This document shows, piece after piece, positions 37,052 to 54,612 of a stretch of DNA of 64,000 bases. Made by a program: the position numbers and the translations under genes. This stretch comes from Ancylobacter polymorphus (lineage in GTDB: Bacteria > Pseudomonadota > Alphaproteobacteria > Rhizobiales > Xanthobacteraceae): NCBI RefSeq assembly GCF_022836935.1, contig NZ_CP083239.1, forward strand, positions 186,001 through 250,000, written 5' to 3'. Each line of letters begins with the position of its first letter. Position 1 is the first letter of the stretch. The notes under the pieces are model-generated. The model saw nothing but the letters and a program-made list of their open reading frames with translations. It ran no database searches and was not told the DNA's origin.

Positions 37052-38509
37052 TCAGAGCGCCGCGAGTTCGGTGACGAACTTGGTACGCAGGAAGGCGTCG
37101 AGCCCCTCGATGCCGCTTTCCGAGCCATAGCCGGATTCGTTGACACCGCCGAAGGGCGTCTCCGGCGTCGACACCGCCATGTGGTTGACGCCGACGAGGC
37201 CGGCATCGAGCGCCTCCTCGGTGCGGGCCGCCAGCGCGCCGGAACGGGTGAAGACGAAGGAGGCGAGGCCATAGGGCAGCGCGTTCGCCCGCTCGATCAC
37301 CTCATCAAAGCTGGAGAAGGAGGTGAGCGGGGCGATGGGGCCGAAGGGCTCGGTCGACATGATCGCCGCATCGGCCGGCACATCGGCGAGCACCGTCGGG
37401 GCGAAGAAGTGGCCCTGATTGCCGACGCGCGTGCCGCCGAGCTTCAGGCTCGCGCCCTTGGCGACGGCATCGTTCACCAGCTCCTCCATCGCCGCGAGAC
37501 GGCGGCGGCCAATCATCGGGCCCATATTGGTGCCGGCATCGAGGCCGTTGCCGACCTTCAGCGCGGAGGCCAGCTCGACGAAGCGGGCGACGAAGGGCTG
37601 GTAGACCTGCTCCTGGATGAAGAAGCGCGTCGGCGAGGTGCAGACCTGGCCGGCATTGCGGAACTTGAACGCCACCAGCGTGCGGGCGGCCAGCTCCAGA
37701 TCGGCATCGCCATGGACGATGACCGGCGCATGGCCGCCCAGTTCCATGGTGCAGCGCTTGAGCGTATCGGCGGAGAGCCGGGCGAGTTCCTTGCCCACGG
37801 CGGTGGAGCCGGTGAGCGTCACCGCCTTCGGGATGGGCGAGGCCAGCAGCACGCGGCTCACATGGGCCGGGGCGCCGAACACCATGTTCAGCACGCCCGC
37901 CGGCAGCCCGGCCTCCTGGAAGCAGCGGGCGATGGCGACCGCCGTGCCGGGGGTCTCTTCCGCCGGCTTGATGATGATCGAGCAGCCCGCGCCGAGCGCG
38001 CCGGCGATCTTGCGGATGACGTTGGAGGACGGGAAGTTCCACGCGGCAAATGCCACGACCGGGCCAACCGGCTCCTTCAGCACCATCTGGCGGACATTGG
38101 CCATGCGGGCGGGGACGATGCGGCCATAGGCACGCTTGCCCTCCTCGGCGTACCAGCGGGTGGCGTCGGCGGCGAACTGCACCTCCGGCACGGCTTCGCC
38201 GAGCGGTTTGCCGTTCTCCTGCGTCAGGAGGCGGCCGATGCGCTCCTTGCGCGCCTCGATGAGATCGGCCGCCTTCATCATCAGCGTGTAGCGCGCCTGG
38301 GCGGTCATCGCCTTCCACAGTTTGAAGCCGCGCTGCGCGGCGTCGAGCGCGCGGGCGAGATCGGCGTCGGAAGCGTGCGGCACGGTGGCCAGCGTCTCCC
38401 CGGTCGCCGGGTTTTCCAGCGCCTCGCTCTTGCCCTCGGAGCCCTGGCACCAGGTGCCGTCGATCAGCAGTTCGATGGTTTCATCATAGGTGGAAAGGTC
38501 GGTCATCAT
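37052..38509 (-). CDS. NAD(P)-dependent aldehyde dehydrogenase (succinate-/α-ketoglutarate-semialdehyde type)
   Basis: 485 residues. Catalytic Glu in TMELGGHAPVI and Cys in NAGQVCTSP; cofactor block PWNF-equivalent AAWNFPSSNVIRKIAGALGAG; C-terminal PFGGVNESGYGSESGIEGL is the GabD-like ending. In the 4-hydroxyproline route the last step is oxidation of α-ketoglutarate semialdehyde to 2-oxoglutarate by an enzyme of this group, which fits its position as last gene of an operon with racemases and a DapA-type deaminase. Succinic semialdehyde is the alternative substrate. Confidence 0.85.
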   Translation of the reverse strand: MMTDLSTYDETIELLIDGTWCQGSEGKSEALENPATGETLATVPHASDADLARALDAAQRGFKLWKAMTAQARYTLMMKAADLIEARKERIGRLLTQENGKPLGEAVPEVQFAADATRWYAEEGKRAYGRIVPARMANVRQMVLKEPVGPVVAFAAWNFPSSNVIRKIAGALGAGCSIIIKPAEETPGTAVAIARCFQEAGLPAGVLNMVFGAPAHVSRVLLASPIPKAVTLTGSTAVGKELARLSADTLKRCTMELGGHAPVIVHGDADLELAARTLVAFKFRNAGQVCTSPTRFFIQEQVYQPFVARFVELASALKVGNGLDAGTNMGPMIGRRRLAAMEELVNDAVAKGASLKLGGTRVGNQGHFFAPTVLADVPADAAIMSTEPFGPIAPLTSFSSFDEVIERANALPYGLASFVFTRSGALAARTEEALDAGLVGVNHMAVSTPETPFGGVNESGYGSESGIEGLDAFLRTKFVTELAAL

Positions 38510-38538: not shown

Positions 38539-39549
38539 TCAGCGGCAGAGGAAGCCGTCCGCCAGCGGGTCGCCTTGCGCGAGCACGAAGCGGTGCTCGC
38601 CGGTGATGTGGGCGAGGCCGACAATATGCGGCAAGATCGCGCCGGCCTTTTGGGCGCCCGGTTGGCCGTCGACCGGACGCGCGGTGGCGGTGAAATCGAC
38701 GCCGAGAATGTTGCGGGTGCGGATCGGCTGGTCGAGGCGCAACTCGCCGCGCGCCACCATCTGCGCCAGCCGGGCGGAGGAGCCGGTGCCGCAGGGCGAG
38801 CGGTCGAACTTGTTGGATTCCAGCACCACCAGCTGGCGGCTGACCAACCCGTGATCGTCCGCTTCGGTCTCGTAGAACAGGATGGAATCGACCGGCCGGG
38901 CGACGCCCGGCACGCGGCCTTCTGTGATGCCTTCATTCAGCGCCGCCTTCAGCGCGGCGCCCACGGCCATGGCGTGGGAGACGCCGGACGGCGCCAACTC
39001 CACCCCGGCGGCACGGGCGGCGATGAGGCCGTACCAATTGCCGCCCCACACCACATCGGCGCTGACATTCACGCCGGCGGCGCTGACAAGCACATTGCAG
39101 GCGGCGACATGGGCCGGCACGTTCTCGAAGGTGACGGCCGCGACCAGCCCCTGTTCGCGGCGCACATGCACGGTGATGATGCCGGCCGGCACTTCCAACG
39201 TGAAGGAGGAGTGCGGCGCGTCGGAGGGGCCGATCAGCCCCATATGGTCGAGCGTCACCGCGAGCCCGATCGTCGCGTGGCCGCACATTTCAAGATATTT
39301 GTAGCTGCCGAGGAAGAAGGCGCCGAAATCCGCGCGCGTGCTCTCGGTCATGACAACGCCGACCATCGCCGCATGGCCGCGCGGCTCGTGCAGCAGGAAG
39401 GTGCGCAGCTTATCGAAGCGGGCGCGGAAATCCTCCGCCCGCGCCTCGACCGTGTCGCCCTTGAGCGGCGGCACGCCGCCGGTGACGACGCGGGTGGGGT
39501 GGCCCGCCGTGTGGCTGTCGATGGTCGAGATCCAGCGCCTCATCGTCAT
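38539..39549 (-). CDS. Proline racemase / 4-hydroxyproline epimerase family (paralogue 1)
   Basis: 336 residues. Both catalytic cysteines are present: Cys89 in MCGHATIG and Cys253 in SPCGTGSS, so it should be a cofactor-independent epimerase/racemase rather than the Cys/Thr trans-3-hydroxyproline dehydratase. Other family blocks: IDSHTAGHPTRVVTGG, LLHEPRGHAAMVG, NKFDRSPCG. It is the closest relative in the window of the sensor domain in the regulator at 47288 (shared LLHEPRGH, ADFGAFF, CGHA, GDPL...GFL). Likely interconverts L- and D-hydroxyproline-like imino acids. Confidence 0.85.
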   Translation of the reverse strand: MTMRRWISTIDSHTAGHPTRVVTGGVPPLKGDTVEARAEDFRARFDKLRTFLLHEPRGHAAMVGVVMTESTRADFGAFFLGSYKYLEMCGHATIGLAVTLDHMGLIGPSDAPHSSFTLEVPAGIITVHVRREQGLVAAVTFENVPAHVAACNVLVSAAGVNVSADVVWGGNWYGLIAARAAGVELAPSGVSHAMAVGAALKAALNEGITEGRVPGVARPVDSILFYETEADDHGLVSRQLVVLESNKFDRSPCGTGSSARLAQMVARGELRLDQPIRTRNILGVDFTATARPVDGQPGAQKAGAILPHIVGLAHITGEHRFVLAQGDPLADGFLCR

Positions 39550-39563
39550 GGCAGGCCCCTCTC

Positions 39564-41261
39564 CTAGCGGCCGGACTTGATGGTGTCGGCGATCTTCTCG
39601 CCGGCCATGATCGTCGTCAGCATGGTGTTGGCGCTGATGACCGCCGGCATGATCGAAGCATCGACCACGCGCAGCCCCTCGACGCCGATCACACGGGCGG
39701 CGCTGTCGACCACGGCGCGCGGATCGTCCGGGCGGCCGATGCGACAGGTGCCGGAGGCGTGCCAGCTGCCGCAGGCATTCTCGCGGATCCAGGCGCGCAG
39801 CGCCTCGCGGTCAGCCATCATCTCCTTCGCCTTGAGGCCGGGGGTAATGACGTTCTCGATCATCAATTTGCGCGCCAGCGGGCCGGTGCCCATGATGCCG
39901 GCGGCCATCAGCGTCATGAACCAGTTGGTGCGGCTGACCGCGCCGAGCTTGCGCACGCGCTCGGAGAAGGTGGCGGGGAAGATGCTCTCGATCACCCCGT
40001 CCATCGCCGGATCGGTGACGATGCCCCAGAGCCGGTGCATGCCGTCCTCCAGCCGCGCGAGGTCGCGCTCGTCGGAGAGCTGGCGGAAATTGACGAAGGG
40101 CGCGGTCGCGGCGTCGCGGCCGTTCAGCTTCACCTCACCGGTGGAATAGGGCCGGTTGACGCAGACGAGGATCGAGGCCAGCCGCCGGCCGAGCGGGTGC
40201 CAGGCGGCGCGGTTAGAGGGCAGCACGAACATGTCGCCCGGCGTGGTCTCCGGCAGGCCGGACGAGTAGCGATAGCCGAGCTGGATGTGGCGGCGCTGGC
40301 TGGCCGGCAGGCGCGCGGCTTTCGGCAGATAGGCGGCGAACGCCACCATCGGGTGGTCCTGCAGGTTCTGCCCGACGCCGGGCCGGTCCGCCCGCACAGC
40401 GATGCCGAATTCCTTCAGATGCGCCGCCGGGCCGATGCCGGCGCGCAGGAGATGGGCCGGTGTCTGCAGCGCGCCGGTGGAGAGGATCACCTCGCGCGCT
40501 TTGAGGGTGAGCGGCCCCTGCGGCCCCTGCGCCTTCAGCCCGGTGACGCGGCTTCCCTCGAACAGCAGCTCCGTCATCTCGGTTTCGGCGAGGATCGTCA
40601 GGTTCGGCCGGGCGCGCACCTCGCGTGTGAGATAGGCGCGGGCGGTGGAGACGCGCTGGCCATCCACATTGTTGATGGTCATCGGGAAATAGCCGTCGTC
40701 GAAGACGCCGTTATGGTCCCGGATATTGGCCACACCCTGCTTGTCGAGCACCTTCGCCACGGTTTTCGCGAAGGGCGACCAGTCCTTTTCCGGGATGCGG
40801 CGCAGCGGCAGCGGGCCGTGGCTGCCATGCAGCTGGCTGTCGCCATAGTCGAGGTCGGTTTCCAGCTTGCGGAAATAGGGCAGCACATCGTCCCAGCCCC
40901 AGCCCTCGGCGCCGTCCTCGCGCCAGTGCTCATAGTCCCAGGGCACGCCGCGAAAGGCGAACTGGCCGTTGATCGAGGTGCCTCCGCCCATCACCCGCGC
41001 CTGCTCGTAGCGCCGCCCCGCCGCGCCGGGCTTGGGGTCGTTGAGGTGGATGGACAGGTTCTGCCAGTGATAGAGCCGGTTGAAATAGGCGACGATCGGA
41101 TAGGCATCGAGCGTGTCGGCCGGCTCCGCGCCCGGCGGCGTGTCGCGCCCGGCCTCGATCAGCGCGACCTTGAGGTTCGAGGCTTCCGACAGCCGGCTCG
41201 CCAGCACGGCACCCGCCGCGCCGCCGCCGACGACGATGTAGTCATATGCGTGTTCGGACAT
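39564..41261 (-). CDS. GMC family FAD-dependent oxidoreductase (choline dehydrogenase-like)
   Basis: 565 residues from ATG 41261. YIVVGGGAAGAVLASRLSE binds FAD; VMGGGTSINGQFAFRG and STGALQTPAHLLRAGIGP are GMC signatures 1 and 2; active-site His in SWHASGTCRIG and Asn in ISANTMLTTIMAGEKIAD. It oxidises a primary or secondary alcohol to an aldehyde/ketone; with the adjacent aldehyde dehydrogenase (5 bases away) it could carry out alcohol-to-acid oxidation. Such a pair is not part of the textbook hydroxyproline pathway. Confidence 0.88.
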   Translation of the reverse strand: MSEHAYDYIVVGGGAAGAVLASRLSEASNLKVALIEAGRDTPPGAEPADTLDAYPIVAYFNRLYHWQNLSIHLNDPKPGAAGRRYEQARVMGGGTSINGQFAFRGVPWDYEHWREDGAEGWGWDDVLPYFRKLETDLDYGDSQLHGSHGPLPLRRIPEKDWSPFAKTVAKVLDKQGVANIRDHNGVFDDGYFPMTINNVDGQRVSTARAYLTREVRARPNLTILAETEMTELLFEGSRVTGLKAQGPQGPLTLKAREVILSTGALQTPAHLLRAGIGPAAHLKEFGIAVRADRPGVGQNLQDHPMVAFAAYLPKAARLPASQRRHIQLGYRYSSGLPETTPGDMFVLPSNRAAWHPLGRRLASILVCVNRPYSTGEVKLNGRDAATAPFVNFRQLSDERDLARLEDGMHRLWGIVTDPAMDGVIESIFPATFSERVRKLGAVSRTNWFMTLMAAGIMGTGPLARKLMIENVITPGLKAKEMMADREALRAWIRENACGSWHASGTCRIGRPDDPRAVVDSAARVIGVEGLRVVDASIMPAVISANTMLTTIMAGEKIADTIKSGR

Positions 41262-41265
41262 TTTT

Positions 41266-42741
41266 TCAGCCGTGGTTGAGCCAGACGGTCTTGAAGCGCA
41301 GGAAGCCTTCGAGCCCCGCGCGCCCCATTTCCTTGCCGAAGCCGGAGCCGGCGAAGCCGCCCTGCGGGGTGGCGAAATCGGGCTGGCGGCCATGGCCGTT
41401 GACCCAGACCGTGCCGGCGTTGAGGCGGGCGGGCAGCGCCAGCGCCTTGGCGGCGCTGGTGGTGTAGAGGCTGGCGGCGAGCGCGTAGCTGGGATGGTTG
41501 GCCATCGCCAGCGCCTCGTCCTCGTCGTCATAGGCGTAGACGGACAGCACCGGGCCGAAGAATTCCTCGCGGAAGCCGACCGATGTGTCGGGCACGCCGG
41601 CGAGCACGGTCGGCTCGACATAGGCGCCCGAATTCATGTTGGCGCAGCGCCGGCCGCCGGTGAGCACGGTGGCACCATCGGCCACCGTTTCGGCCAGCAT
41701 GCGGTCGATGCGCGCCGCCTGCATCTCGCTGATGATCGGCGGCAGGCTCGCGCGCGTGTCCCAGGTGGGGCCGGCGACGCGCGCCTGGGCGAGGCCGATG
41801 ATCTTGTCGGTGAGTTCGTCCAGCAGCCGGCGCGGCGCGATCAACCGCGTGCCGGCGGTGCAGACCTGGCCGGCATTGGCGAGGAACCCGCCGGCGATGG
41901 TGGCGGCGAGCGCGTCGAGATCATGCGCGTCGTCCATGACAAGCTGGGGCGTCTTGCCGCCGAGTTCCAGGGTGAGCGGCTTGGTGCCGGTCATCGCCGC
42001 ATCCGCCATCACCCGCGCGCCGGTGGCGGAGGAGCCGGTGAAGGTGATCTTGCCCGTGAGCGGATGGCGCACCAGCGCCGAGCCGGTGGCGCCCGCGCCC
42101 TGCACCACATTGAACAGGCCGGCGGGCAGCCCCGCCTCGATGGCGAGTTCGGCGATCATCACCGCCGAGGAGGGCGTGAGTTCGGAAGGCTTCAGCACCA
42201 CCGCATTGCCGGTCACCAGCGCCGGGGCGGACTTCCAGATGGCGTTGATCGCCGGGAAGTTGAACGGCGCGATGGAGGCGATGACGCCATAGGGCTCGGG
42301 CTTGAGGAAGGTGGTGCCGCTGTTCGCCCCGGCGATCAGCGAGCCCTCGATCTTGTCGGCCCATTCGGCGAAATAGCGCACGGCGCCCGCCGCGCGGACG
42401 AGGTCGCGGGTGAGGACATCGGCCACCGGCCGGGTCGTCGTCGCCGCTTCCAGCCGCCCGAGCTCGGTGCGCCGCGCGTCGATGAGATCGGCCCATGCCT
42501 TCAGCACCCGCGCCCGCTCCAGCGGCGTGGCGCTCGCCCAGCCGGAGGCGGTGCGGGCCTTGGCGGCGCTGCGCATCGCCGCGTCCACCAGTGCCTCGTC
42601 CGCCGCGCGGAGTGTGCCGATGGCCGCGCCGTCGGACGGGCGGATGAGCGCGATTTCCGCGCCGTCGCCGGCGAGGCGCCGCCCGTCGATCAGGTGATCG
42701 GTGATAGCGGCGACGCCGTTCGGGTCGAAATCGTGGGACAT
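41266..42741 (-). CDS. Aldehyde dehydrogenase family protein (benzaldehyde/betaine-aldehyde type)
   Basis: 491 residues. Catalytic Glu in LELGGKTPQLV and Cys in NAGQVCTAGTRL; cofactor region IAPFNFPAINAIWKSAPALVTGN. C-terminus GSGFGKEMGRAGLEGFLRFKTVW is typical. Pairs with the GMC oxidoreductase next to it. Substrate not predictable; distinct from the other aldehyde dehydrogenase at 37052. Confidence 0.86.
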   Translation of the reverse strand: MSHDFDPNGVAAITDHLIDGRRLAGDGAEIALIRPSDGAAIGTLRAADEALVDAAMRSAAKARTASGWASATPLERARVLKAWADLIDARRTELGRLEAATTTRPVADVLTRDLVRAAGAVRYFAEWADKIEGSLIAGANSGTTFLKPEPYGVIASIAPFNFPAINAIWKSAPALVTGNAVVLKPSELTPSSAVMIAELAIEAGLPAGLFNVVQGAGATGSALVRHPLTGKITFTGSSATGARVMADAAMTGTKPLTLELGGKTPQLVMDDAHDLDALAATIAGGFLANAGQVCTAGTRLIAPRRLLDELTDKIIGLAQARVAGPTWDTRASLPPIISEMQAARIDRMLAETVADGATVLTGGRRCANMNSGAYVEPTVLAGVPDTSVGFREEFFGPVLSVYAYDDEDEALAMANHPSYALAASLYTTSAAKALALPARLNAGTVWVNGHGRQPDFATPQGGFAGSGFGKEMGRAGLEGFLRFKTVWLNHG

Positions 42742-42764: not shown

Positions 42765-43772
42765 TCAGACGCCGGTGAGGCGGAAGCCCTGCTGGAACGG
42801 GTCGTTGGGATCGAGGAAGAAGTTGAAGCTGCCGGTGAGATAGGCCGACCCGGTGACGGTGCAGCGGATCGCCGGCAGGTCGCCGACGGTGGCCTCGCCA
42901 TGGATCTCGCCGGTGAACACCGTGTCGAGAATGCCGGCGTGGCGGAACGTGTCGCCCACCTTCAGCTCGCCCTTGCCGTGCAGCATGGCCATGCGCGAGG
43001 CAGTGCCGGTGCCGCAGGGCGAACGGTCGATCACGGTCGGCGGGCAGACGACGACGTTCTTGCCGTCGAAGCGCACCCCGTCGCCGTCGCCGACGATCTC
43101 GATCTGGTAGATCTCGTTGACATGGGCGAGCGTCGGATGCTGGACCGGAATGTCCTTCAGCCCGGCGCGCAGCTCCGCCGCCGCGCTCACCAGCGCCCAG
43201 GCATTGTCGGTGGTCAGTTCAAGGCCGAGGTCCGAGCCCTTGACGATGAGGTAGAAATCGCCGCCGAAGGCGATGTCGGCGCGCACCTTGCCGAAGCTCT
43301 TGGTCTCGACGACCACGTCGCGCTGGTAGAGGAAGCTCAGCGGCATCTCCAGCGTGACGGAGACGGCGCGGCCATTCTCCACCTTCACCCGCGCCGGCAC
43401 GACGCCGGCCGGCGTGTCGAGCCGCACCAGCGTCTCGCCTTCCTGCGCGGTGATGTAGCCGGCTTCCACCGCGATGGTGGCGACCGCCATGGCGCAGTGG
43501 CCGCACATGGGCGGATAGGTGTCGGGCTCAAGGATGAGCATGCCGATATCGGCGTCGGGCGAGCAGGCTTCGGTGAGCACGGCGGCGGGCATGTTGAACG
43601 AGCCGCGCGGCTCGAACAGCACGAGCTGGCGCAGCCAGTCGCGGCTCATCAGGTCGGCGCGCTTTTCCACCATGGTGGCGCCGCGGATCGGGCCGAAGCC
43701 GGAGGTGATGAGGCGCAGCGGGCAGCCGGCGGTATGGGAATCGATGCCCTGGATGATGCGGGTCGAGCGCAT
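42765..43772 (-). CDS. Proline racemase / 4-hydroxyproline epimerase family (paralogue 2)
   Basis: 335 residues. Catalytic Cys90 in MCGHCAMA and Cys253 in SPCGTGTA are both kept. IDSHTAGCPLRLITSG, LFEPRGSFNMPAAVLTEA and GGDFYLIVKG are family blocks. It differs widely from paralogue 1, which suggests two substrates, for example different hydroxyproline isomers, N-modified forms or proline itself. It lies next to the DapA-family lyase gene (12 bases). Confidence 0.85.
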   Translation of the reverse strand: MRSTRIIQGIDSHTAGCPLRLITSGFGPIRGATMVEKRADLMSRDWLRQLVLFEPRGSFNMPAAVLTEACSPDADIGMLILEPDTYPPMCGHCAMAVATIAVEAGYITAQEGETLVRLDTPAGVVPARVKVENGRAVSVTLEMPLSFLYQRDVVVETKSFGKVRADIAFGGDFYLIVKGSDLGLELTTDNAWALVSAAAELRAGLKDIPVQHPTLAHVNEIYQIEIVGDGDGVRFDGKNVVVCPPTVIDRSPCGTGTASRMAMLHGKGELKVGDTFRHAGILDTVFTGEIHGEATVGDLPAIRCTVTGSAYLTGSFNFFLDPNDPFQQGFRLTGV

Positions 43773-43784: not shown

Positions 43785-44693
43785 TCAGGCGAGCGTGTTG
43801 ATGAGGGCGGCGACATCGGCCTCGGCGAGGATCTTCGCCACGGAAGCCTGCTGCGCGTCGGTGAAGGGCAGCAGCGGCTCGCGCGGAATGCCGACCGGCT
43901 GGCCGAGCGCGTTCATCGCCGCCTTGATGCCGGCATAGAAGCTGCCGCTCTTGAAGCAGCGATAGATGGCGAACAGCGCCGGCTCCAGACGGTCCGCCGT
44001 GGCGGCATCGCCCGCGGCGCAGGCGTCGAAATAGGCGCGCACGAGGCGGCCGGAAAGCTGGTGCGCCATGGCGACCACGCCGACCACGCCGAGCGGCAGG
44101 GAGGAGCGGATCATCGTCTCATAGCCGACGAACACCGCCAGCTCGCCCTTCACCTTCTGGCACAGCTCGGCGACCTGCTGGATGTCGCCGGAGGAATCCT
44201 TGATGGCGACGACGTTGGGGATCTCGGCGAGGCGCGCCACCAGATCGGGGGTGATGTTGACGCCGATGCGCACCGGGCTGTTGTAGAGCATGACCGGCAG
44301 GCCGGAGGCGGCGCAAATGCGGCGGTAGAAATGCTCGGCCTCGCGCAGGTCGGGCTTGGCGTAGATCGGCGGCAAAGCAAGGATGCCGTCGCAGCCCGTG
44401 GTCTCGGCGGCCTTGGTGAGTTCCAGCACCACATCGGTGTGGAGATCGGAAACCCCCGCCAGCACCGGCACGCGGCCGGCGGCGACCTTCACCGTCGCCT
44501 CGAACAGCTTCACCCGCTCGGCGACGCTCATGGCATAGAACTCGCCGGTCGAGCCGCAGACGATGAGGCCGTCGGCGCCATTGGCGATATTGGCCTCGGC
44601 CAGCGCCTCGAAGCGCGGGAAGTCGATCGGCCCCTCGGGCAGGAAGGGGGTGACGAGGACACTGTGGATGCCCTGCCAGTTGGTCTTGCTCAT
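43785..44693 (-). CDS. DapA-family aldolase/lyase, candidate Δ1-pyrroline-4-hydroxy-2-carboxylate deaminase
   Basis: 302 residues from ATG 44693. Class I aldolase of the dihydrodipicolinate synthase group: Schiff-base Lys165 in AIKDSSGD, Tyr137 in LYNSPVRIG, and GSTGEF of the carboxylate-binding site. In hydroxyproline catabolism a DapA homologue deaminates the cyclic imine to α-ketoglutarate semialdehyde, which fits the epimerases and semialdehyde dehydrogenase in this operon. The start was taken at the DapA-like SKTNWQGIHSVLVTPF. Confidence 0.83.
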   Translation of the reverse strand: MSKTNWQGIHSVLVTPFLPEGPIDFPRFEALAEANIANGADGLIVCGSTGEFYAMSVAERVKLFEATVKVAAGRVPVLAGVSDLHTDVVLELTKAAETTGCDGILALPPIYAKPDLREAEHFYRRICAASGLPVMLYNSPVRIGVNITPDLVARLAEIPNVVAIKDSSGDIQQVAELCQKVKGELAVFVGYETMIRSSLPLGVVGVVAMAHQLSGRLVRAYFDACAAGDAATADRLEPALFAIYRCFKSGSFYAGIKAAMNALGQPVGIPREPLLPFTDAQQASVAKILAEADVAALINTLA

Positions 44694-44801
44694 GTGCGGT
44701 CTCGTTTCAGGAAGGCGGTGTCGGGACAGAGCGGGGGCGTGGCGCGGCACGCGGCCCCGCGCGAAAGGACGTTTGAGGTGCAGAAGGCGCCGGGCGGCGC
44801 G

Positions 44802-45623
44802 TCAGGTCTGAAGCAGCGGGCGCATCAGCTCGGCGGTGGCGTGGAAACGGTTGACGAAGGCGCGCACGCGCTCATTCGTGGGATGCAGCAGCACTTCCTG
44901 CGGCGTGCCCTCAGCGCAGATCGCGCCCTGATCGAGGAACACGACGCGGGTGGCGACCTCCAGCGCGAAGCCCAGCTCATGGGTGACGACCAGCATCGTC
45001 ATCCCCTCGCGGGCCAGCGTGATCATGGTGTTGAGCACCTCGCCCACCAGTTCCGGGTCGAGCGCGGAGGTCGGCTCGTCGAACAGCATCAGTGAGGGAC
45101 GCATGTTCAGCGCGCGGGCGATGGAGACGCGCTGCTTCTGCCCGCCCGACAGCCGGCCGGGCATGCGGTCGGCGAACTCCGCCATGCCGACCTTGGCGAG
45201 CAGGTCCATGGCGCGGGCGCGGTTGGTGGCGTCCGCCTCGCCCAGCACGGTGCGCGGGCCTTCCATCACATTCGCCAGCACGTTCATGTGCGGGAACAGG
45301 TTGAACTGCTGGAACACCATGCCGACGCGGCTGCGCATGGCGGCGACCTCGCGGCCGCTGATGCGGGCATTGTCGCGCCCGTCCGGCGCCCGGTCGAAAA
45401 TGGGCGAGCCATCGACGACGATGCGGCCGGAGGTCGGCTGTTCCAGCAGGTTGACGCAGCGCAGCAGCGTGGTCTTGCCGGAGCCGGACGAGCCCAGCAG
45501 CGCCACCACCTCGCCGGGATAGACGGTGAGATCGATGCCGCGCAGCACTTCATGCGAGCCGTAGCACTTGCGCACCTGGCGCACTTCGACCAGCGCGGGG
45601 GCGTCGGCGGGAAGACGGGTCAT
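44802..45623 (-). CDS. Polar amino acid ABC transporter ATP-binding protein
   Basis: 273 residues from ATG 45623. Walker [11 protein letters not shown]-loop [11 protein letters not shown], signature [15 protein letters not shown], Walker [14 protein letters not shown]-loop VTHELGFA: GlnQ/HisP/ArtP type. Together with the permease (14 bases upstream) and the binding protein it imports an amino acid-like solute, by context a (hydroxy)proline or derivative. Confidence 0.9.
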
Positions 45624-45637
45624 GGCGGGGCCCCCTC

Positions 45638-46285
45638 TCAGTGACGGCGCATCTCGAGCCGGCGCGCGAGATAGTTGGAGGGAATGAGAACGGCGAGGAA
45701 GATGAGGCCGACCACGGTGTAGACCTCCATCGGCCGGTAGGTGAAGGAGGAGACGTAGCTCGCCTGATAGAGCAGGTCCGGCACGGTGAGCACCGACAGC
45801 AGCGTCGTGTTCTTCATCTGGATGATGGTCTGGCCGGCAAGCGGGGGCACCATCTGCCGCAGCGCCTGCGGCAGGATGATGCGGCGCATCGCCTGCCAGG
45901 AGCGCATGCCGAGCGCCTTGGCCGCGTCCGCCTGCCCGTGGTCGAGCGACTGGATGCCGGCGCGCAGGATTTCGGCGTAATAGGCGCCGCCATAGAGGCT
46001 GAGCGCGAGAATGCCGGCGGCCTGTTTGGAAATATTGATGCCGGCGAAGATCGGCAGCGCATAATAGCTCCACAGCAGCCACACCAGCAGCGGCACGTTG
46101 CGGAAGAACTCCACGAACAACATGCCGATGATTCGCAGCGTCTTGAGCGGCGAAAGCTGCACCAGCGCGATCAGCAGCCCGACGATCAGGCCGAGGACGC
46201 AGGTGATCACCGTATATTCGAGGGTGACGACCAGTCCCCAGGCGAACAGATGGGCGTTTTGGGTGATGACGGACCAGTCGAACAC
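45638..46285 (-). CDS. Polar amino acid ABC transporter permease
   Basis: 215 residues, His/Glu/Gln-type single permease likely homodimeric. [23 protein letters not shown] at the N-terminus, [20 protein letters not shown] and the [33 protein letters not shown]-type loop, quoted in pieces. Only one permease gene is present, so a homodimer is inferred. Confidence 0.88.
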
Positions 46286-46370: not shown

Positions 46371-47246
46371 TTAGAAGTTGAACTCGGGCGGCAGCACGGA
46401 GAGATCGATGCCGCGCGCTTCGAAGGCCTTGCGCAGCTTGCCCTGAGCGAGGCCGAGGGCGCGCTGCTGGTTCACCCAGTTGGTGAGCCAGTTCTCGTAG
46501 CCCTCATTGCCTTCCTCGCGGCGCATGCCGATGGTCGCGGGGTTGAGCAGCATCGGGCTCGGCAGCACGATCTGGCCGTTGATCGCCTTGGACACGTCGA
46601 TGGCGTCGAACACGGCGAGGATCATGGCGTCGGCGCGGTTGGCCTGCAGCTCCATGATGCCGAGCGGGCGGTCTTCCACCACGATGATGTTGGCCTTGGG
46701 CGTCAGCGCCTCGGCGACGACCTGCATCGTGCCGCCCTTCTGCACGACGATGCGCACCGACGGGTCGTTCAGTTCGGCCCAGGTCTTCTTGGCAAAGCCC
46801 GGCTTGGTGACGATAGCCCAGGCATCGGTGAACAGCGGTACGCTGAGATAATCCACCACCAGGCCGCGCTTGGGGTTGGGGTTCAGGCCGAAGGCGATGT
46901 CGATCTTGTTGGCCTGGAAGTCGGCGGCGAGGTTGCCCCAGGTGGTTTCAACCGGCACGACCTTGACGTTGAGCAGCGTGGCGATGTCGTTCGCCCAGTC
47001 CATGTAGAAGCCGCTCCACGCGCCGGTGTTGCGGTCGCGGATATAGCCGGGCTCCTCGCCGATCATGACCGGCACGCGCAGCTCGCCGCTCTTGCGGATG
47101 CGGTCGAGCACGAGGTTGGGATCGGCGGCAAAGGCGGACTGGAAGGTCGAGAGCGCCAGCACGACGGCGCCCACGAACATGAGGACGAAAGAGCGGAAAA
47201 GCGAGCCGGCGGCCGGAGACGGCCGGAGGGACGAGGCGGTGGTCAT
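46371..47246 (-). CDS. Amino acid ABC transporter substrate-binding protein
   Basis: 291 residues; a longer than usual N-terminal leader with the hydrophobic export segment at about 18-40 (FRSFVLMFVGAVVLALSTFQ...FA). Family 3 binding-protein features: LRVPVMIGEEPGYIRD, GFYMDWANDIATLL, DIAFGLNPNPKRGLVVDYLSVPLF and VVQKGGTMQVVAE. Catches the imported amino acid-like solute for the permease/ATPase pair. First metabolic gene after the regulator in the operon. Confidence 0.87.
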   Translation of the reverse strand: MTTASSLRPSPAAGSLFRSFVLMFVGAVVLALSTFQSAFAADPNLVLDRIRKSGELRVPVMIGEEPGYIRDRNTGAWSGFYMDWANDIATLLNVKVVPVETTWGNLAADFQANKIDIAFGLNPNPKRGLVVDYLSVPLFTDAWAIVTKPGFAKKTWAELNDPSVRIVVQKGGTMQVVAEALTPKANIIVVEDRPLGIMELQANRADAMILAVFDAIDVSKAINGQIVLPSPMLLNPATIGMRREEGNEGYENWLTNWVNQQRALGLAQGKLRKAFEARGIDLSVLPPEFNF

Positions 47247-47287: not shown

Positions 47288-49177
47288 CTATCGCAGGAAG
47301 CCGCTGCCGAGAGGATCGCCCATCTCCTGGATGAGCGTCGCCACGGCCTTGAGGTGCGCGCGTCCCGTGATCCGGGTCGTGGCGGCCACGGCACCGCCGG
47401 CGCCGTGGGTCAGGGTGATGAGTTCGCCGGACAGACGCCCGCCGAACAGGCTGACCGCGTCGAGCCGCGTCCCCGGCTGCGCGGCGCCGGTGGCGGCGCG
47501 CAGGGCGAGGAGGCAGGAAAGACCGGCGACGCCGGGGGAGCGGTCGAATTTCTGGCGATCAATGGCGAGGAACTGGCGCACCGCGCCGGTCGCGTCCGTG
47601 CCATGGAACAGCACGGAATCGACGCTGGGCTGCGCCCCGCGCCGGCGCGGCAGCGCCTCGTTGAGATGGCGGCGCAGGCTGTCACCCAGCGCGAGCAGGC
47701 GGTCGATATTGCCCGCCTCCAGCGTCAGCCCGGCGGCCTGCGCATCGACGAGCGCGGTGCAGTCGCCGCACATGGCGATGGCGACATCGAGCTCCAGCCC
47801 GTCGATCGCCACGCGCCGGCCCACTTCCGTGATGAGCGCGGGCGGCATGTCGAGGGCGATGGCGTCGGCGTCGCCGTCCACGCCCACTTCGACGCTGAGA
47901 ATGCCGTTCGGCACCTCGATGGTGAAGCGCTTGTGGCGGGTGAGGCGACCGAGCGCCCGCAGCGCCGCCGTGTAGCCCATGATGGCGTGACCGCACAGGC
48001 CCGGATAGCCATAGGAGGATATGAAGAAGGCGCCGAAATCCGCCGCGCTGGAGGCCACCGGCACCAGACCGAAGGCGCCGGAATGGCCGCGCGGCTCGTG
48101 CAGCAGCATCGGGCGCAGGCTGTCATAGCGCTCCGCGAACTGGCGGGCCTTGCCGGCGACGCTGTCGGCGTCCAGCCCTTCCAGCGGCTCGATCAGGATA
48201 TGGGTCGGGTGGCCCTCGGTGTGGGTCTCGATGACGCGGAAGGTGCGCGCGCCCGAGGGCAGCTCCAGGCTGAGCGCCCCCTCGCCGATGCCCTCGCCGA
48301 TGCCGGCACCGAGGCCGAGCCGGCGGTCGGTGCGCTCGAAGCTCATGGAGGAGAGGCGGTCGCTGTCGGTGTTGATCCACAGCACCTTGGCCGGCACCGG
48401 GCCGGTGTTGCGCCAGCGATGGGCGATACGGCTGTTGAAATAGGCGCCGTCGCCGGGGTTCAGCACCTCGGCGTCGCGGTCGGCGAGCGCGAGTTCGAGC
48501 GAGCCTTCCAGCACATAGATCAGTTCCTCGCCCTCATGGGCGTAGAAGCCGTCGCTCTCGCGCTCGGGGTCGATGGTCCACACTTCGGCGTCCATCAGCC
48601 GCTGCGAGACAGTGAGCTGCTCGATGGTGACGCCGGGGCCGAAGGAGCCGACGATGCGCCCCTGCCCCCGGCGCACGACGGGGAAATCGCGCCCCTTCGT
48701 GCCGCCGAGCAGTTCCGCCAGCGTGCGGCCGAACACTTCGGCAATGGCGTTGAGCCGCGCCGGGGAAAGGAAGGCGACGCCGCGCTCGAACATGGAGAGA
48801 TGCGAGGTGGCGATGTCGGTGCGCTCGGACAGCTCGCGCAGCGACATGCCCGCTTCCTGACGCAGGCCGCGCACGCGGGCGCCGAGATGATTGAAGGTGA
48901 CCGGCGCCGCCTCGCCTTCCGGCGCGGGCGCGGCCTCCTCCTCGCTGTCGAGCAGCCGGCGGATGGCGGAAAGGCTCTGGCCGTCCACCCGGCGCATGCG
49001 GTCGATGCGCCGCACGCGCTCGATCTCGGCCTCGCCATAGGAACGATGCCCGCCCGCCGACTTGCTGGGGGTCAGCAGGCCCTGATTTTCCCAGGAGCGC
49101 AGGGTCGACACCGCAATGCCGGTCACCTTGGCGACATGGCCGATGGAGAAGGGGAAGCGGGCGGCCGGCTGGGTCAT
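47288..49177 (-). CDS. Four-domain regulator: MerR HTH + XRE HTH + cupin + proline-racemase-like domain
   Basis: 629 residues in one uninterrupted frame. Residues 8-78 are a MerR-type wHTH (SIGHVAKVTGIAVSTLRSWE, then GHRSYGEAEIERVRRI). Residues ~97-158 are a second, XRE/Cro-type HTH (LRQEAGMSLRELSERT, SHLSMFERG). Residues ~185-270 are a cupin barrel (AHEGEELIYVLEGSLEL, PGDGAYFNSRIAHRW). Residues 311-629 are a full-length proline racemase/hydroxyproline epimerase domain: IETHTEGHPTHILIE, LLHEPRGHSGAFG, GLCGHAIMG with Cys395 kept, and FDRSPGVAGLS where the second catalytic Cys-containing PCGTG is degenerate (Gly549 in place of Cys). Epimerisation needs both thiols, so this domain probably binds but does not racemise its ligand. 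The gene heads the operon whose two racemases are its relatives, so a ligand-sensing repressor or activator is the likely role. Confidence 0.85.
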   Translation of the reverse strand: MTQPAARFPFSIGHVAKVTGIAVSTLRSWENQGLLTPSKSAGGHRSYGEAEIERVRRIDRMRRVDGQSLSAIRRLLDSEEEAAPAPEGEAAPVTFNHLGARVRGLRQEAGMSLRELSERTDIATSHLSMFERGVAFLSPARLNAIAEVFGRTLAELLGGTKGRDFPVVRRGQGRIVGSFGPGVTIEQLTVSQRLMDAEVWTIDPERESDGFYAHEGEELIYVLEGSLELALADRDAEVLNPGDGAYFNSRIAHRWRNTGPVPAKVLWINTDSDRLSSMSFERTDRRLGLGAGIGEGIGEGALSLELPSGARTFRVIETHTEGHPTHILIEPLEGLDADSVAGKARQFAERYDSLRPMLLHEPRGHSGAFGLVPVASSAADFGAFFISSYGYPGLCGHAIMGYTAALRALGRLTRHKRFTIEVPNGILSVEVGVDGDADAIALDMPPALITEVGRRVAIDGLELDVAIAMCGDCTALVDAQAAGLTLEAGNIDRLLALGDSLRRHLNEALPRRRGAQPSVDSVLFHGTDATGAVRQFLAIDRQKFDRSPGVAGLSCLLALRAATGAAQPGTRLDAVSLFGGRLSGELITLTHGAGGAVAATTRITGRAHLKAVATLIQEMGDPLGSGFLR

Positions 49178-49181: not shown

Positions 49182-49247
49182 TCTACATACCGTTTGTAGA
49201 AACACCGAACATGCGCAGACGGTATGCGGATTTATTGAACGAGTCAA
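49182..49247 (-). promoter_or_regulatory. Promoter and nested dyads of the four-domain regulator operon
   Basis: On the minus strand: -35 TTGACT (49247-49242), 17-base spacer, -10 TACCGT (49224-49219). The -10 is part of an inverted repeat CATACCGT / ACGGTATG (plus-strand arms 49186-49193 and 49219-49226), and a second dyad TCTACA-N7-TGTAGA (49182-49200) overlaps its downstream arm, ending 5 bases before the start codon. No good ribosome site is visible, so the dyad covers the translation start region. This looks like an autoregulatory operator with two kinds of half-site, matching a protein with two different HTH domains. Confidence 0.55.
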
Positions 49248-49338: not shown

Positions 49339-49455
49339 CTATATCAAGATATGAGTGAGAATAGACTCACCGCTTGAGGAAACGCATGGAAGGCTGAGGC
49401 GGCGGTGCGGAAACGCGCGGCGGAGCGGCTTTTCGTGCCGAGCCAGGACAGCCGC

Positions 49456-50715
49456 ATGCCCGCGCCCCACCGGATCGAAGCCGACTATCTCATTGAGACC
49501 GCCTATGATCCCCGCCGCGCCGTCGAGGCGATGGCGGGCGAACAGTCGAGCGGCACCTTTGTCGCCATTCCCGGCGAGACGCCGGAGCTGAAGGAGCGCT
49601 CCGCCGCCCGGATCGAGGCACTGGAACTCGTCGCCACCTCCGACGCTCCGTCCCTGCCCGGCGCCGGCCATCCCCCGGGCGGGGTGATCCAGAGGGCGCG
49701 CGTCACCCTTTCCTGGCCGATGGACAATCTCGGCCCCTCGCTGCCAAACCTGCTGGCGACCGTGGCGGGCAATCTGTTCGAACTGAAGCAGTTCTCCGGC
49801 CTGCGCCTTCTCGACATCCGCCTGCCGCAGGACTTCGCGCAGGCCTATGGCGGGCCGAAATTCGGCATTGAGGGCACGCGCCGCCTCGCCGGGGTCGAGG
49901 GCCGGCCGATCATCGGCACCATCGTCAAGCCGAGCGTGGGTTTCGGGCCGACCGAGACGGCGGACCTCGTGAAGCTGCTGGCGGACGCGGGCATCGACTT
50001 CATCAAGGACGACGAATTGCAGTCCGACGGCCCGCATTGCCGCTTCGAGGACCGCGTGCACGCGGTGATGCGCGTCATCAACGACCATGCCGACCGCACC
50101 GGCAAGAAGGTGATGTTCGCCTTCAACCTCACCGGCGAGATCGACCAGATGCGCCGCCGCCACGATCTCGTGCAGGAACTGGGCGGCACCTGCGTCATGG
50201 CCAGCCTCAACTCGGTTGGCCTCGTCGGCATGATCGAGCTTGGTCGCTTCACGCAGCTGCCGCTGCACGCCCACCGCAATGGCTGGGGCTATCTCTCGCG
50301 CGCGCCGATGCTCGGCTGGTCCTATGTCGCCTGGCAGAAGATCTGGCGGCTGGCGGGGGCCGACCACATGCATGTCAACGGCCTCGCCAACAAGTTCTCG
50401 GAGGCCGATGACAGCGTGATCGCCTCCGCCCGCGCGTGCCTCACCCCCCTGTTCGAGGACAAGCCCTGCATCGCCATGCCGGTGTTCTCCTCCGGCCAGT
50501 CGGCCAAGCAGGCGCCCGGCACCTATGCCGCGCTGGGGTCGGCGGACCTGATCTTCGCCGCCGGCGGCGGCATCATGGCCCATCCCGACGGCCCGGCGGC
50601 GGGCGTCGCCTCGCTGCGCGAGGCGTGGGAAGCGGCGATGAGCGACGTGCCGCTGGCCGATTATGCCCGCGACCACGCCGCGCTCGCCCGCGCGCTGGAG
50701 ACCTATGCGGCATGA
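49456..50715 (+). CDS. RuBisCO-like protein, candidate 3-oxo-isoapionate-4-phosphate-cleaving enzyme (OiaT/OiaX type)
   Basis: 419 residues from ATG 49456; a GTG 17 codons earlier (49405) is an alternative start. RuBisCO large-subunit fold with most active-site positions: Lys in GTIVKPSVGF (K175 equivalent; K177 is Ser), the carbamylation block DFIKDDE with Lys-Asp-Asp-Glu, His-Arg in LHAHRNGWG, loop-6 Lys in NGLANKFSE, Ser in FSSGQSAK and the phosphate-binding FAAGGGIMAHPDG. In D-apionate catabolism two RLPs act on 3-oxo-isoapionate 4-phosphate, one hydrolytic (3-phosphoglycerate plus glycolate), one decarboxylating; the sequence alone does not tell me which. Coupled by ATGA to the kinase gene. 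Not a CO2-fixing RuBisCO: no small subunit, and K177 is lost. Confidence 0.82.
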   Translation: MPAPHRIEADYLIETAYDPRRAVEAMAGEQSSGTFVAIPGETPELKERSAARIEALELVATSDAPSLPGAGHPPGGVIQRARVTLSWPMDNLGPSLPNLLATVAGNLFELKQFSGLRLLDIRLPQDFAQAYGGPKFGIEGTRRLAGVEGRPIIGTIVKPSVGFGPTETADLVKLLADAGIDFIKDDELQSDGPHCRFEDRVHAVMRVINDHADRTGKKVMFAFNLTGEIDQMRRRHDLVQELGGTCVMASLNSVGLVGMIELGRFTQLPLHAHRNGWGYLSRAPMLGWSYVAWQKIWRLAGADHMHVNGLANKFSEADDSVIASARACLTPLFEDKPCIAMPVFSSGQSAKQAPGTYAALGSADLIFAAGGGIMAHPDGPAAGVASLREAWEAAMSDVPLADYARDHAALARALETYAA

Positions 50716-52091
50716 GCCCCGCTCCGGCTTCCGCCCTTCCGGCCGGCCCGCTCGTCGCCTTCTATGGCGACGACTATACCGGCGCGTCGGCGGTGATGGA
50801 GGTGCTGAGCTTCGCCGGCCTGCCGACCGTGCTGTTCCTCGGCCCGCCGACGCCGGCTCAGCTCGCCCGCTTTCGCGAGATGCGCGGCATCGGCATTGCC
50901 GGTGTCGCCCGCTCGCAGCCGCCGGAATGGATGGACGAAGAGCTGCCGCCGATCTTTGAGCAACTGGCCGCGCTGAAGGCGCCGATCAGCCATTACAAGG
51001 TCTGCTCCACGTTCGATTCCTCGCCCGAGATCGGCTCCATCGGCCGCGCGGCGGAAATCGGCGAGCGCCTTCTCGGCGGCGAATGGCATCCGCTCATTGC
51101 CGGCGCGCCGGCCATCGCCCGCTATCAGGCCTTCGGCAATCTGTTCGCCGCCATTGACGGCACCGGCTATCGGCTCGACCGCCACCCTGTCATGGCGCGC
51201 CATCCGGTGACGCCGATGAACGAGGCGGATGTGCGCCGGCACCTCGCGCGGCAGACCGACCTGCCGGTCGGCCTCGTCGATTTCGTCGCCATGAAGACCG
51301 GAAAGGCCGAGGCGCAACTCGCCGCCGAGCGCGCGGCCGGCGCCCGCATCCTGGCGCTCGACGTGCTCGACGACGAGACGCTGGTCGAGGCCGGGCGGCT
51401 GGTGTGGGAACAGCGCGGCGAACGCCTGTTCGCCCTCGGCTCGCAGGGACTGGAATATGCGCTGGTCGCCTATTGGCGCGACGCCGGGCTGCTGGAAGCG
51501 GAAGCGCCGACGGCCCCACCGGCGCGGGCTGAACACATTGCCGTCGTCTCCGGCTCCTGCTCGCCGATCACAGCGGCGCAGATCGGCCACGCGCTGGAGA
51601 ACGGCTTCGAGGGCATAAGGCTCGACGCGACGCACGCGGTGGAGTGCCGGGCGTGGGAGCGCGAAATCGCGCGCGGCACGGCGGCGGCGCTCAAAGCGCT
51701 GGAGGCCGGCCACGACCCGCTCATCTTCACCGCCAGCGGCCCGGACGATCCGGCGGTGCCGGCGCTCGGCCACGCGATCGCGGCGGCGGGTATTGCCCCG
51801 GCGCAGGTCAATGCCCGCATCGGCGACGGGCTCGGGCGGGTGCTCGACGCGGTGGTGCGCCGGGCCGGGCTGACGCGCGCCGTCATTTCCGGCGGCGACA
51901 CGTCAGGCCATGCCGGCATGGCGCTCGGCATCTATGCGGTGACCGCGCTGGCACCGCTCGCGCCGGGCTCGCCGCTTTGCCGCGCCTATGCCGAAGGCGC
52001 CCATGACGGGCTCGAAATCACGTTCAAGGGCGGCCAGATGGGCCGGCCGGACTTCTTCAGCGCCGCACGGGGCGGCGTCGCCAACCATTGA
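50712..52091 (+). CDS. oiaK: DUF1537 four-carbon acid sugar kinase family, candidate 3-oxo-isoapionate kinase
   Basis: 459 residues, ATG overlapping the RLP stop. N-terminal substrate domain starts AFYGDDYTGASAVMEVLSFAG; C-terminal nucleotide-binding domain has VVSGSCSPITAAQI and VISGGDTSGHAGMAL, the DUF1537 signature. It should phosphorylate 3-oxo-isoapionate at C4 to make the substrate of the adjacent RLP. Function rests on the neighbourhood (RLP, ApnO, ApnL); the kinase family alone also covers threonate and erythronate-type substrates. Confidence 0.78.
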   Translation: MSPAPASALPAGPLVAFYGDDYTGASAVMEVLSFAGLPTVLFLGPPTPAQLARFREMRGIGIAGVARSQPPEWMDEELPPIFEQLAALKAPISHYKVCSTFDSSPEIGSIGRAAEIGERLLGGEWHPLIAGAPAIARYQAFGNLFAAIDGTGYRLDRHPVMARHPVTPMNEADVRRHLARQTDLPVGLVDFVAMKTGKAEAQLAAERAAGARILALDVLDDETLVEAGRLVWEQRGERLFALGSQGLEYALVAYWRDAGLLEAEAPTAPPARAEHIAVVSGSCSPITAAQIGHALENGFEGIRLDATHAVECRAWEREIARGTAAALKALEAGHDPLIFTASGPDDPAVPALGHAIAAAGIAPAQVNARIGDGLGRVLDAVVRRAGLTRAVISGGDTSGHAGMALGIYAVTALAPLAPGSPLCRAYAEGAHDGLEITFKGGQMGRPDFFSAARGGVANH

Positions 52092-52110
52092 CCAGGAGAG
52101 AGGACCTCAG

Positions 52111-52962
52111 ATGAAAAAGATCGCCTTGCTCGGCGCCGGCGGAAAGATGGGCGTCCGGCTCGCCACCAATCTCCAGGGCTCGCCCTATGAGGTGATGCAT
52201 GTCGAGCCGACCGAGGCCGGCCGTGCCCGCCTGAAGGAGAAGACCGGGCTCGACTGCATCGACGGCGACAATGCGCTCGCCGATGCCGACGCCGTGCTCA
52301 TGGCCGTGCCGGACCGGCTGATCGGCAAGATCGCCCACACCTTCATCGAGAAGGTGAAGCCCGGCACCGCGATCATCATGCTCGACGCCGCCGCCCCGCA
52401 TGCGGGCGAACTGCCCAAGCGCGACGATGTCACCTATTTCGTCACCCATCCCTGCCACCCGCCGATCTTCAACGACGAGGTCACGGAGGAAGCGAAGAAC
52501 GACTTCTTCGGCGGCGTGCATGCCAAGCAGCACATTGTCTGCGCGCTGATGCAGGGGCCGGAAGAGCACTATGCCCAGTGCGAGCAGATCGCCCGCACCA
52601 TCTACAAGCCGGTCATGCGGGCGCATCGCTGCACGGTGGAGCAGATCGCCATCATGGAGCCGGCGCTGGCCGAGACCATCGGCGCCACGCTCTGCCTCGC
52701 CCTGCGCGAGGCGACGGACGAGGCCGTGCGCCGCGGCGTGCCGCGCCAGGCGGCGACCGACTTCCTGCTCGGCCACCTCACCATCGAGCTGGCGATCGCC
52801 TTCGAGATCTTCCCCGAGGGCAAGTTCTCCGATGGCGCGCTCTATGCCATCGACCAGGCCCGGCCGCAGATTTTCCGCGAGGGCTGGCTGGAGCGCATCT
52901 TCGACCCCAAGGCCGTGCAGCGCTCGGTCGAGGAAATCTGCAACCCGCCCAAGGCGGCCTGA
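52111..52962 (+). CDS. apnO: ApnO-like D-apionate oxidoisomerase (phosphogluconate-dehydrogenase C-terminal type)
   Basis: 283 residues from ATG 52111 (AGGAGAGAGGA upstream). N-terminal Rossmann fold IALLGAGGKMGVRLATNL; VLMAVPDRLIGKIAHTF; THPCHPPIFNDEVT; helical C-terminal dimerisation domain with EATDEAVRRGVPRQAATDFLLGH. In the apionate pathway this NAD-dependent enzyme oxidises and rearranges D-apionate to 3-oxo-isoapionate, feeding OiaK and the RLP. 19 bases after oiaK, same operon. Confidence 0.78.
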   Translation: MKKIALLGAGGKMGVRLATNLQGSPYEVMHVEPTEAGRARLKEKTGLDCIDGDNALADADAVLMAVPDRLIGKIAHTFIEKVKPGTAIIMLDAAAPHAGELPKRDDVTYFVTHPCHPPIFNDEVTEEAKNDFFGGVHAKQHIVCALMQGPEEHYAQCEQIARTIYKPVMRAHRCTVEQIAIMEPALAETIGATLCLALREATDEAVRRGVPRQAATDFLLGHLTIELAIAFEIFPEGKFSDGALYAIDQARPQIFREGWLERIFDPKAVQRSVEEICNPPKAA

Positions 52963-53049
52963 GGCGCCCGCATCGGCGCATGCCACCGGCTCCCGTCCGG
53001 GGCCCTCGACAGCCCCGGACGCACAACATTCAACAGGGACAGGAACGCC

Positions 53050-54027: not shown

Positions 54028-54035
54028 GCCCTGCA

Positions 54036-54062
54036 CCGGCCGCCCCTTTGCGGAGCGGCCGG
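54036..54062 (+). terminator. Hairpin between TRAP binding-protein and membrane-subunit genes
   Basis: CCGGCCGC (54036-54043), 11-base loop, GCGGCCGG (54055-54062), 8 bases after the stop of the binding-protein gene. Like the hairpin at 46317 it separates a binding-protein gene from its permease gene and may adjust relative expression. Confidence 0.5.
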
Positions 54063-54118
54063 CCCCGGCCATCGGCATCGCAGCCCGGAGGCGTCCGCCT
54101 CCATGGGAGAGGTGTGAC

Positions 54119-54607
54119 ATGCTTCTGCAGTTCTGGACCGGCGTCGAATGGCTGGCGCGCGCGCTTTTGTGCGCCCTCATCAGCGCCATGGTGATCGTGT
54201 GCCTCGGCCAGGTGATCTGGCGCTATGCCTTCAACGACCCGCTCATCTGGTCGGAGGAGCTGGCGCGCTATCTCTTCGTCTGGGTCGGCTATCTCGCGGC
54301 CTGGTTCGCCTGGACCAAGCGGGCGCATATCGCGCTCGACGCAGTGACCTATCTGGGGCTTCCGGGGCTTGAGCGCGCCTGCGGCCGGCTCGTCGAGGCC
54401 ATCGTCCTCGTCTATTGCGGCGTGACGCTCCATGCCTGCATCGGCTTCCTCCGCCTCACCAGCAATCAGCCCTCGGCCGTGCTCGAAGTGCCGATGAGCC
54501 TGGTCTATGGCGGCTATGCCGCCATGTGCGTCCTCATCATCGGCGACATCGTGATCGGCTGGATCTATGGCGCCCGACGGGCCGCCCCGGCCGTTCCGCA
54601 GGAGTAA
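54119..54607 (+). CDS. TRAP transporter small permease (DctQ family)
   Basis: 162 residues from ATG 54119 with AGAGGTG upstream; the frame is open for 45 codons before but unlike the family. Four helices; FNDPLIWSEELARYLFVWVGYLAAWFAW is the DctQ core. It bridges to the large permease and takes part in gating. Start of dctM follows 5 bases after the stop. Confidence 0.87.
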   Translation: MLLQFWTGVEWLARALLCALISAMVIVCLGQVIWRYAFNDPLIWSEELARYLFVWVGYLAAWFAWTKRAHIALDAVTYLGLPGLERACGRLVEAIVLVYCGVTLHACIGFLRLTSNQPSAVLEVPMSLVYGGYAAMCVLIIGDIVIGWIYGARRAAPAVPQE

Positions 54608-54612
54608 GACCC

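Follow-up and report, generated by a model that had tools for sequence, protein, structure and literature searches.

The 64,000-nucleotide stretch of the Ancylobacter polymorphus genome analysed here (contig NZ_CP083239.1, positions 186,001 to 250,000 of the forward strand; hereafter the window) contains a gene, J, whose product joins two helix-turn-helix (HTH) domains of different families, a cupin and a complete proline-racemase domain in one chain. At a probability of roughly 60%, we read J as the local autoregulator of an operon for the uptake and catabolism of a cyclic imino acid, with the former racemase domain sensing an imino acid of the pathway; our best guess is that this ligand is a derivative of proline or hydroxyproline. 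The gene and its domains are as follows.

47288..49177, minus strand: J, fused regulator, 629 amino acids (aa), ATG at 49177, stop at 47288
J residues 10-78: MerR_1 (Pfam, 71 bits)
J residues 105-156: HTH_3, the XRE HTH (Pfam, 47 bits)
J residues 199-268: Cupin_2 (Pfam, 60 bits)
J residues 315-627: Pro_racemase (Pfam, 157 bits; profile positions 1-324 of 325)

J has kept one of the two catalytic cysteines

J is a single uninterrupted reading frame with no internal stop, and the Pfam scan agrees with the initial annotation of this DNA, which had read the same four domains from the letters. The last of these belongs to PF05544 both by its Pfam match, which runs along the full length, and by its predicted racemase fold. 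Catalytic proline racemases and hydroxyproline epimerases are described, in passages of PMC1964878, by the two motifs MCGH and DRSPCGxG, both with Cys. J does not carry this two-Cys signature: its first motif is LCGH, with Cys395 present, and its second is DRSPGVAG in place of DRSPCGTG, so that residue 549 is Gly, just as had been annotated. Against the NCBIfam models taken for trans-3-hydroxyproline dehydratase, NF045511 and NF047722, it scores 106 and 86 bits (cut-offs 540 and 550). The trans-3-hydroxyproline dehydratases of the same family have one Cys and a Thr at the second position (excerpts of PMC4113996 and PMC9309405), and Gly549 separates J from them as well. The earlier claim that catalysis should be lost is correct as far as the two-Cys pair is concerned, but its stronger form has to be softened, as one-Cys enzymes exist (PMC4113996, in part).

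The cysteines were lost in order within one fused family

At least 59 proteins besides J carry the MerR-XRE-cupin-racemase architecture, and they are spread over many contigs. A full-protein search, in which scores were computed only for the 7993 candidates with the most shared words, returned 53 further full-length proteins in which the four domain types are all present, at 39-98% identity to J, and a profile search added six four-domain proteins among the best 120 of its 270 matches, with P0096 marked partial. At the two catalytic positions the 60 fused proteins are Cys/Cys (CC, 21 proteins, among them P0037 and P0038, the latter from Oleomonas cavernae), Cys/Gly (CG, 34 proteins including J and P0015) or Gly/Gly (GG, five proteins).

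To place these states we built two trees with the motif columns excluded, both of which carry long-branch warnings; the first is midpoint-rooted, and the second is rooted on three racemases of the type encoded by operon gene E (below), includes 32 of the 64 listed free racemases and leaves out L030. In both trees CG and GG proteins together form one clade (support 100/100), the GG clade is nested inside it (100/100), and the CC fused proteins lie outside as a paraphyletic set. All fused proteins form one group with support of 97/91 in the midpoint tree and 85/97 in the E-rooted tree, where the group takes in a free racemase of 358 aa (P0097) that falls among the CC proteins, and where several backbone forks among the latter have support of 84-86, too low for the star of the tree program. 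The 46 unfused racemases of the E-rooted tree are all Cys/Cys. The neighbours of the fused group are free racemases including operon racemase B (34% identical to the J domain), and racemase E (24%) is more distant. The simplest history would be that a working enzyme was fused, that the second Cys was lost once, and that the first Cys was lost once later. In two of the 21 CC proteins (P0095 and P0096) both Cys are present, the pocket Asp is replaced by Ala (ARSPC) and the EPRGH motif ends in Gln (EPRGQ); retention of the pocket residues is thus not universal among the fused proteins. A change of the second Cys to Gly also occurs outside the fused family, in the free racemase-family protein L062 (G087:C21:17276-18247; motifs MCGAGTIG and DRSPGGTG), which has lost the His of CGH as well.

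A possible starting point for the fusion is seen in Rhizobium sp. ACO-34A (L071), where a gene for a GntR/FCD regulator overlaps the start of a free Cys/Cys racemase by one base, and the racemase is followed by an ABC substrate-binding protein, a permease, a 'hypothetical protein' at the ATPase position and an aldehyde dehydrogenase; by eye, gene order in Shinella (L070) is alike. Because it stands between regulator and transporter, the L071 racemase occupies the place of the fused domain. By gene order alone, and for racemases that stand outside the trees (L070-L073, 36-38% identical to J, P0001), this suggests a capture route from a racemase gene between regulator and transporter.

The former racemase domain is under selection and keeps its substrate-site residues

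Comparing the J gene with seven orthologues, we obtained ratios of nonsynonymous to synonymous substitution rates (dN/dS) of 0.06-0.32 for the racemase domain, which is not decaying but under purifying selection. The respective values are 0.12-0.35 for the intact enzyme B and 0.01-0.07 for enzyme E, and they reach 0.19 in the MerR, 0.14 in the XRE and 0.10 in the cupin domain of J. Judged by these ranges, the racemase domain is constrained about as much as its active paralogue and less than the three other domains of J.

The T. cruzi racemase has Leu127, His132 and Asp296 as pocket residues beside the catalytic Cys (from parts of PMC1964878), and by their motifs H397 and D545 of J correspond to the last two. 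Throughout the 39 proteins that have lost a Cys (CG and GG), Gly549 is invariant, and so are H319, T320, G322, H323, T325, E361, P362, R363, G364, H365, H397 and D545-P548, leaving the substrate-site motifs HTxGH, EPRGH, H397 and DRSP unchanged. Cys395 is present in all 34 CG proteins and is Gly in all five GG proteins. The initial annotation had supposed that the imino-acid pocket may persist, and selection and invariance agree that the rest of the domain has been retained.

J heads a conserved operon with two intact racemases

The nine genes downstream of J lie on the same strand.

46371..47246, minus strand: I, ABC transporter substrate-binding protein (SBP_bac_3), 41 bp after J
45638..46285, minus strand: H, ABC transporter permease (BPD_transp_1)
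44802..45644, minus strand: G, ABC transporter ATPase (ABC_tran), start codon not fixed
43785..44750, minus strand: F, DHDPS-family aldolase/lyase
42765..43772, minus strand: E, racemase 1, CGH and DRSPCGTG motifs both intact
41266..42741, minus strand: D, aldehyde dehydrogenase
39564..41261, minus strand: C, GMC oxidoreductase
38539..39549, minus strand: B, racemase 2, both catalytic motifs intact
37052..38509, minus strand: A, aldehyde dehydrogenase

As had been annotated, J thus heads an operon with two intact racemases of its own family. With its ABC transporter of the polar-amino-acid type, its pair of racemases, a DHDPS-family enzyme, a GMC oxidoreductase and aldehyde dehydrogenases, the operon looks like one for uptake and catabolism, and C has 5-(hydroxymethyl)furfural oxidase as its nearest solved relative. 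Of the two racemases the NCBIfam scan covered E, which stays below the cut-offs (best 295 bits against 556). J, the substrate-binding protein, permease, ATPase, DHDPS-family enzyme, racemase E, aldehyde dehydrogenase and GMC oxidoreductase follow one another in this order in 16 of 16 genomes (the window and 15 further loci), so that J has a local metabolic operon as its neighbour across species, as XRE-cupin regulators do.

Fourteen of these contexts have a CG regulator, and in all 14 the free racemases E and B are present, each with its two motifs intact. In the two CC genomes (G085 and G087) the last gene of the operon encodes a different aldehyde dehydrogenase, which shares 34-35% identity with A. 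In G085 the first motif reads CAH and racemase B is kept; in G087 there is no racemase B at the regulator locus. Five places in G087 match Pro_racemase: two are the regulator and E, two more (L059 and L062) resemble E more closely than B, and the last (L055) was judged by family score only, with 436 bits compared with 265-290 for B in three genomes. Racemase B is probably absent elsewhere in G087 too, and this one genome would agree with a fused domain that, while intact, can take the place of racemase B.

A divergent cluster lies beside J in the window (49405-56709, plus strand). It encodes a RuBisCO-like protein (best NCBIfam match OiaX, 456 bits, below the cut-off of 700), a two-domain protein of the sugar-acid kinase type (SBD_N/NBD_C), a dehydrogenase with PGDH_C, TRAP transporter genes (DctP, DctM) and a GntR/FCD regulator matching NanR. 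Among the loci compared, these genes stand upstream in L050 only.

A conserved block overlaps a putative promoter of J

Two elements stand out upstream of the J start codon.

49219..49247, minus strand: candidate promoter/operator block, TTGAC-N3/4-TTCAAnAnATC then about (A)CATACCGT
49182..49193, minus strand: right arm of an inverted repeat, ACGGTATGTAGA, directly upstream of the J start codon

The block recurs in all 17 of the regulator upstream regions compared, which come from 16 genomes (L013 and L050 are the same genome), in CC and CG contexts alike, and the sequence around it is otherwise unlike between genera. Read by eye, it contains a -35-like TTGACT and a -10-like TACCGT 17 bp apart, with a 5'-TTGA-N5-TCAA-3' dyad on the -35-like element. 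Among 30,000 shuffles made from 15 of the upstream regions with a second-order Markov model, one contained the block, the own genome has a single match at up to two mismatches, and across the collected loci the block occurs only in pieces containing the regulator gene (41 overlapping pieces). No copy was seen, by eye only, upstream of genes for MerR-XRE-cupin proteins that stand free of a racemase domain. The inverted repeat CATACCGT / ACGGTATG is clear in upstream regions of the Ancylobacter type and degenerate or absent in distant ones. Activators of the MerR family have their operator inside an over-long promoter spacer of 19-20 bp. Since the 17-bp spacing, read by eye, lends no support to such spacer activation, repression by occlusion is the better guess for J.

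A model for sensing and its alternatives

In the model that we favour, the MerR and XRE domains would bind the conserved block overlapping the promoter of J, the first gene of the operon J-I-H-G-F-E-D-C-B-A, and J would most likely repress by blocking RNA polymerase, by analogy with XRE-cupin regulators. The C-terminal domain would go back to a functional racemase such as these operons encode, and the fusion would at first have had both Cys; in one lineage, exchange of the second Cys for Gly would have ended two-base racemisation while the substrate cleft was retained. A proline- or hydroxyproline-like substrate or product of the pathway would then bind this cleft, which in the enzymes closes on its ligand, and binding would be relayed to the DNA-binding part, releasing the operon.

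Several observations weigh against this model. In each of the seven comparisons, dN/dS is higher for the racemase domain than for any of the other three. CC proteins and free relatives share 82 conserved positions, and at 32 of these conservation is lost in CG proteins, the two residues directly after Gly549 included; thus remodelled, the pocket may accept another ligand or none at all, and the ligand specificity of the racemase-like domain may be altered in CG proteins. The retention of Cys395 in 34 of 34 CG proteins hints at remaining chemistry. The structural model of J has a predicted template modelling (pTM) score of 0.56, and its confidence is low at residues 362-365, within the EPRGH loop. 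Finally, the cupin alone could be the sensor.

This last point is best seen against the XRE-cupin regulators. In ErfA, PsdR and PauR of Pseudomonas the cupin is the predicted sensor, the repressors of this type have one target and are the autoregulated first gene, and structure 1Y9Q holds D-methionine in its cupin (all from parts of PMC7901475). J resembles these factors in having HTH_3 followed by Cupin_2, a metabolic operon as its neighbour, one conserved local site and a presumed induction by a small molecule, and 1y9q is among the matches to its predicted structure. It differs in the MerR HTH that precedes the XRE HTH and in the 320-residue proline-racemase domain that follows the cupin, and repression by J is only presumed. 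Because the cupin is the predicted sensor in XRE-cupin regulators, J has two candidate sensors, of which the racemase-like domain is the second. The proposal of the initial annotation, that a pathway enzyme was captured as the ligand sensor of its own regulator, stands with respect to capture from the same superfamily, which the trees, the graded Cys loss and the fixed operon support, and with respect to sensing it is an inference.

We consider it unlikely, if the strongest of the alternatives, that the cupin is the only sensor and the former racemase domain a scaffold for dimerisation or stability. The MerR-XRE-cupin module presumably works without a racemase (in 32 of 35 matches listed below, and on plasmids of Sinorhizobium and Agrobacterium), cupin residues H214, G216, E218 and H253 are invariant in an alignment of 54 proteins, and cupin dN/dS is below that of the racemase domain in all seven comparisons. 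A scaffold, however, leaves unexplained why HTxGH, EPRGH, H397 and DRSP are invariant in the 39 proteins that have lost a Cys, and why the added domain always comes from the same family as the operon enzymes.

Less probable still is that J acts as a trigger enzyme with one Cys, dehydratase-like or with partial proton exchange, and that its CC relatives are full racemases. With ProR, 4-hydroxyproline epimerase and trans-3-hydroxyproline dehydratase, J shares the whole fold and the first catalytic motif, its own racemase domain being fused to a regulator; the dehydratases work with one Cys, 34 of 34 CG proteins keep theirs, 21 fused proteins have both, and one of the two CC genomes (G087) has no racemase B beside the regulator. 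On the other hand, J has Gly where the characterised activities have Cys or Thr (PMC4113996, in part), the next two residues are changed too, and the five relatives that have lost both Cys still keep the domain. The operon of the window already has two intact racemases, moreover, and the other CC genome (G085) retains racemase B. That separate genes were joined here by a frameshift, which the initial annotation had named as its possible undoing, or by a missed stop can be dismissed: no supporting evidence was found, the frame is open without a stop, and the same architecture recurs in at least 59 other proteins.

Returning to the favoured model, we would tentatively, and at somewhat less than even odds, extend it to a series from enzyme to sensor, in which CC proteins would be regulator-racemases doing the job of racemase B, CG proteins non-catalytic imino-acid sensors and GG proteins the completed conversion, with two signals (cupin and former racemase) and two HTH domains acting on one promoter. 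Conversion of enzymes to sensors is usually inferred from end points, and the 60 fused proteins show intermediates side by side. Because these coexist and the operon supplies the likely ligand, the order of fusion, loss of catalysis and keeping or retuning of the pocket is testable. If the model holds, the proline-racemase fold would join the sensor domains of bacterial regulators.

The principle would be shared with MocR, GabR and EnuR, in which a domain with an enzyme fold is reported to have become the sensor of a regulator of catabolism by capture; these differ from J in their GntR HTH and in their aminotransferase fold with pyridoxal 5'-phosphate (PLP), and the Pfam scan found neither a GntR HTH nor an aminotransferase domain in J. 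On two Mesorhizobium plasmids a racemase lies in an ABC-transporter/DHDPS cluster that resembles operon J-A and ends with a gene annotated as belonging to the PLP-dependent aminotransferase family. The MocR-type gene lies at 12968-14356 in L072 and at 13034-14425 in L073, with GntR and aminotransferase domains confirmed by a domain scan of the L072 gene.

Distribution of the fused family and of the MerR-XRE-cupin module

The fused family is sparse. Counting the own genome, full-length matches occur in nine of 397 sampled genomes of the order and in two of 385 of the class, where a third genome (G731) matched through nothing but a free racemase; sampling the class with another centre returned the same G436 only (one of 385). 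With P0046, which has lost both Cys, as the query, seven of 297 genomes matched, and no GG protein was recognised among these seven as far as they were read. A search of the families of the two CC genomes found no additional CC genome. Named sources of fused proteins include Ancylobacter, Pseudoxanthobacter, Hartmannibacter, Hoeflea, Labrenzia, Oricola, Segnochrobactrum and Oleomonas.

The initial annotation had considered two DNA-binding domains of different families in one chain unusual, and this did not survive. A further search lists 35 proteins, of which 32 are MerR-XRE-cupin proteins without a racemase (251-310 aa), so the two HTH domains with a cupin are not special to J. The listed matches are 29-62% identical to the first 290 residues of J, with the same domain order, and among the best 30 of 102 plasmid records 21 match only this part and nine only the racemase part. 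MerR-XRE-cupin is an independent module, common without a racemase, and the addition of the racemase is the special feature. Unlike J, the free genes inspected, annotated as 'MerR family transcriptional regulator', adjoin genes of other kinds. One in Sinorhizobium medicae (L053 7977-8807) adjoins and diverges from gabT/gabD-type genes, and those in Agrobacterium and S. chiapasense (L051 7989-8792 and L052 7989-8792) lie in an ETF/purU/folD/FAD-oxidoreductase cluster.

We found no paper, among those under open licence, on a proline racemase fused to a MerR, helix-turn-helix, cupin or DNA-binding domain, and the family of free MerR-XRE-cupin regulators looks unstudied under that name. Several database records name the fused regulators 'proline racemase' or '4-hydroxyproline epimerase', names that mislead pathway predictions.
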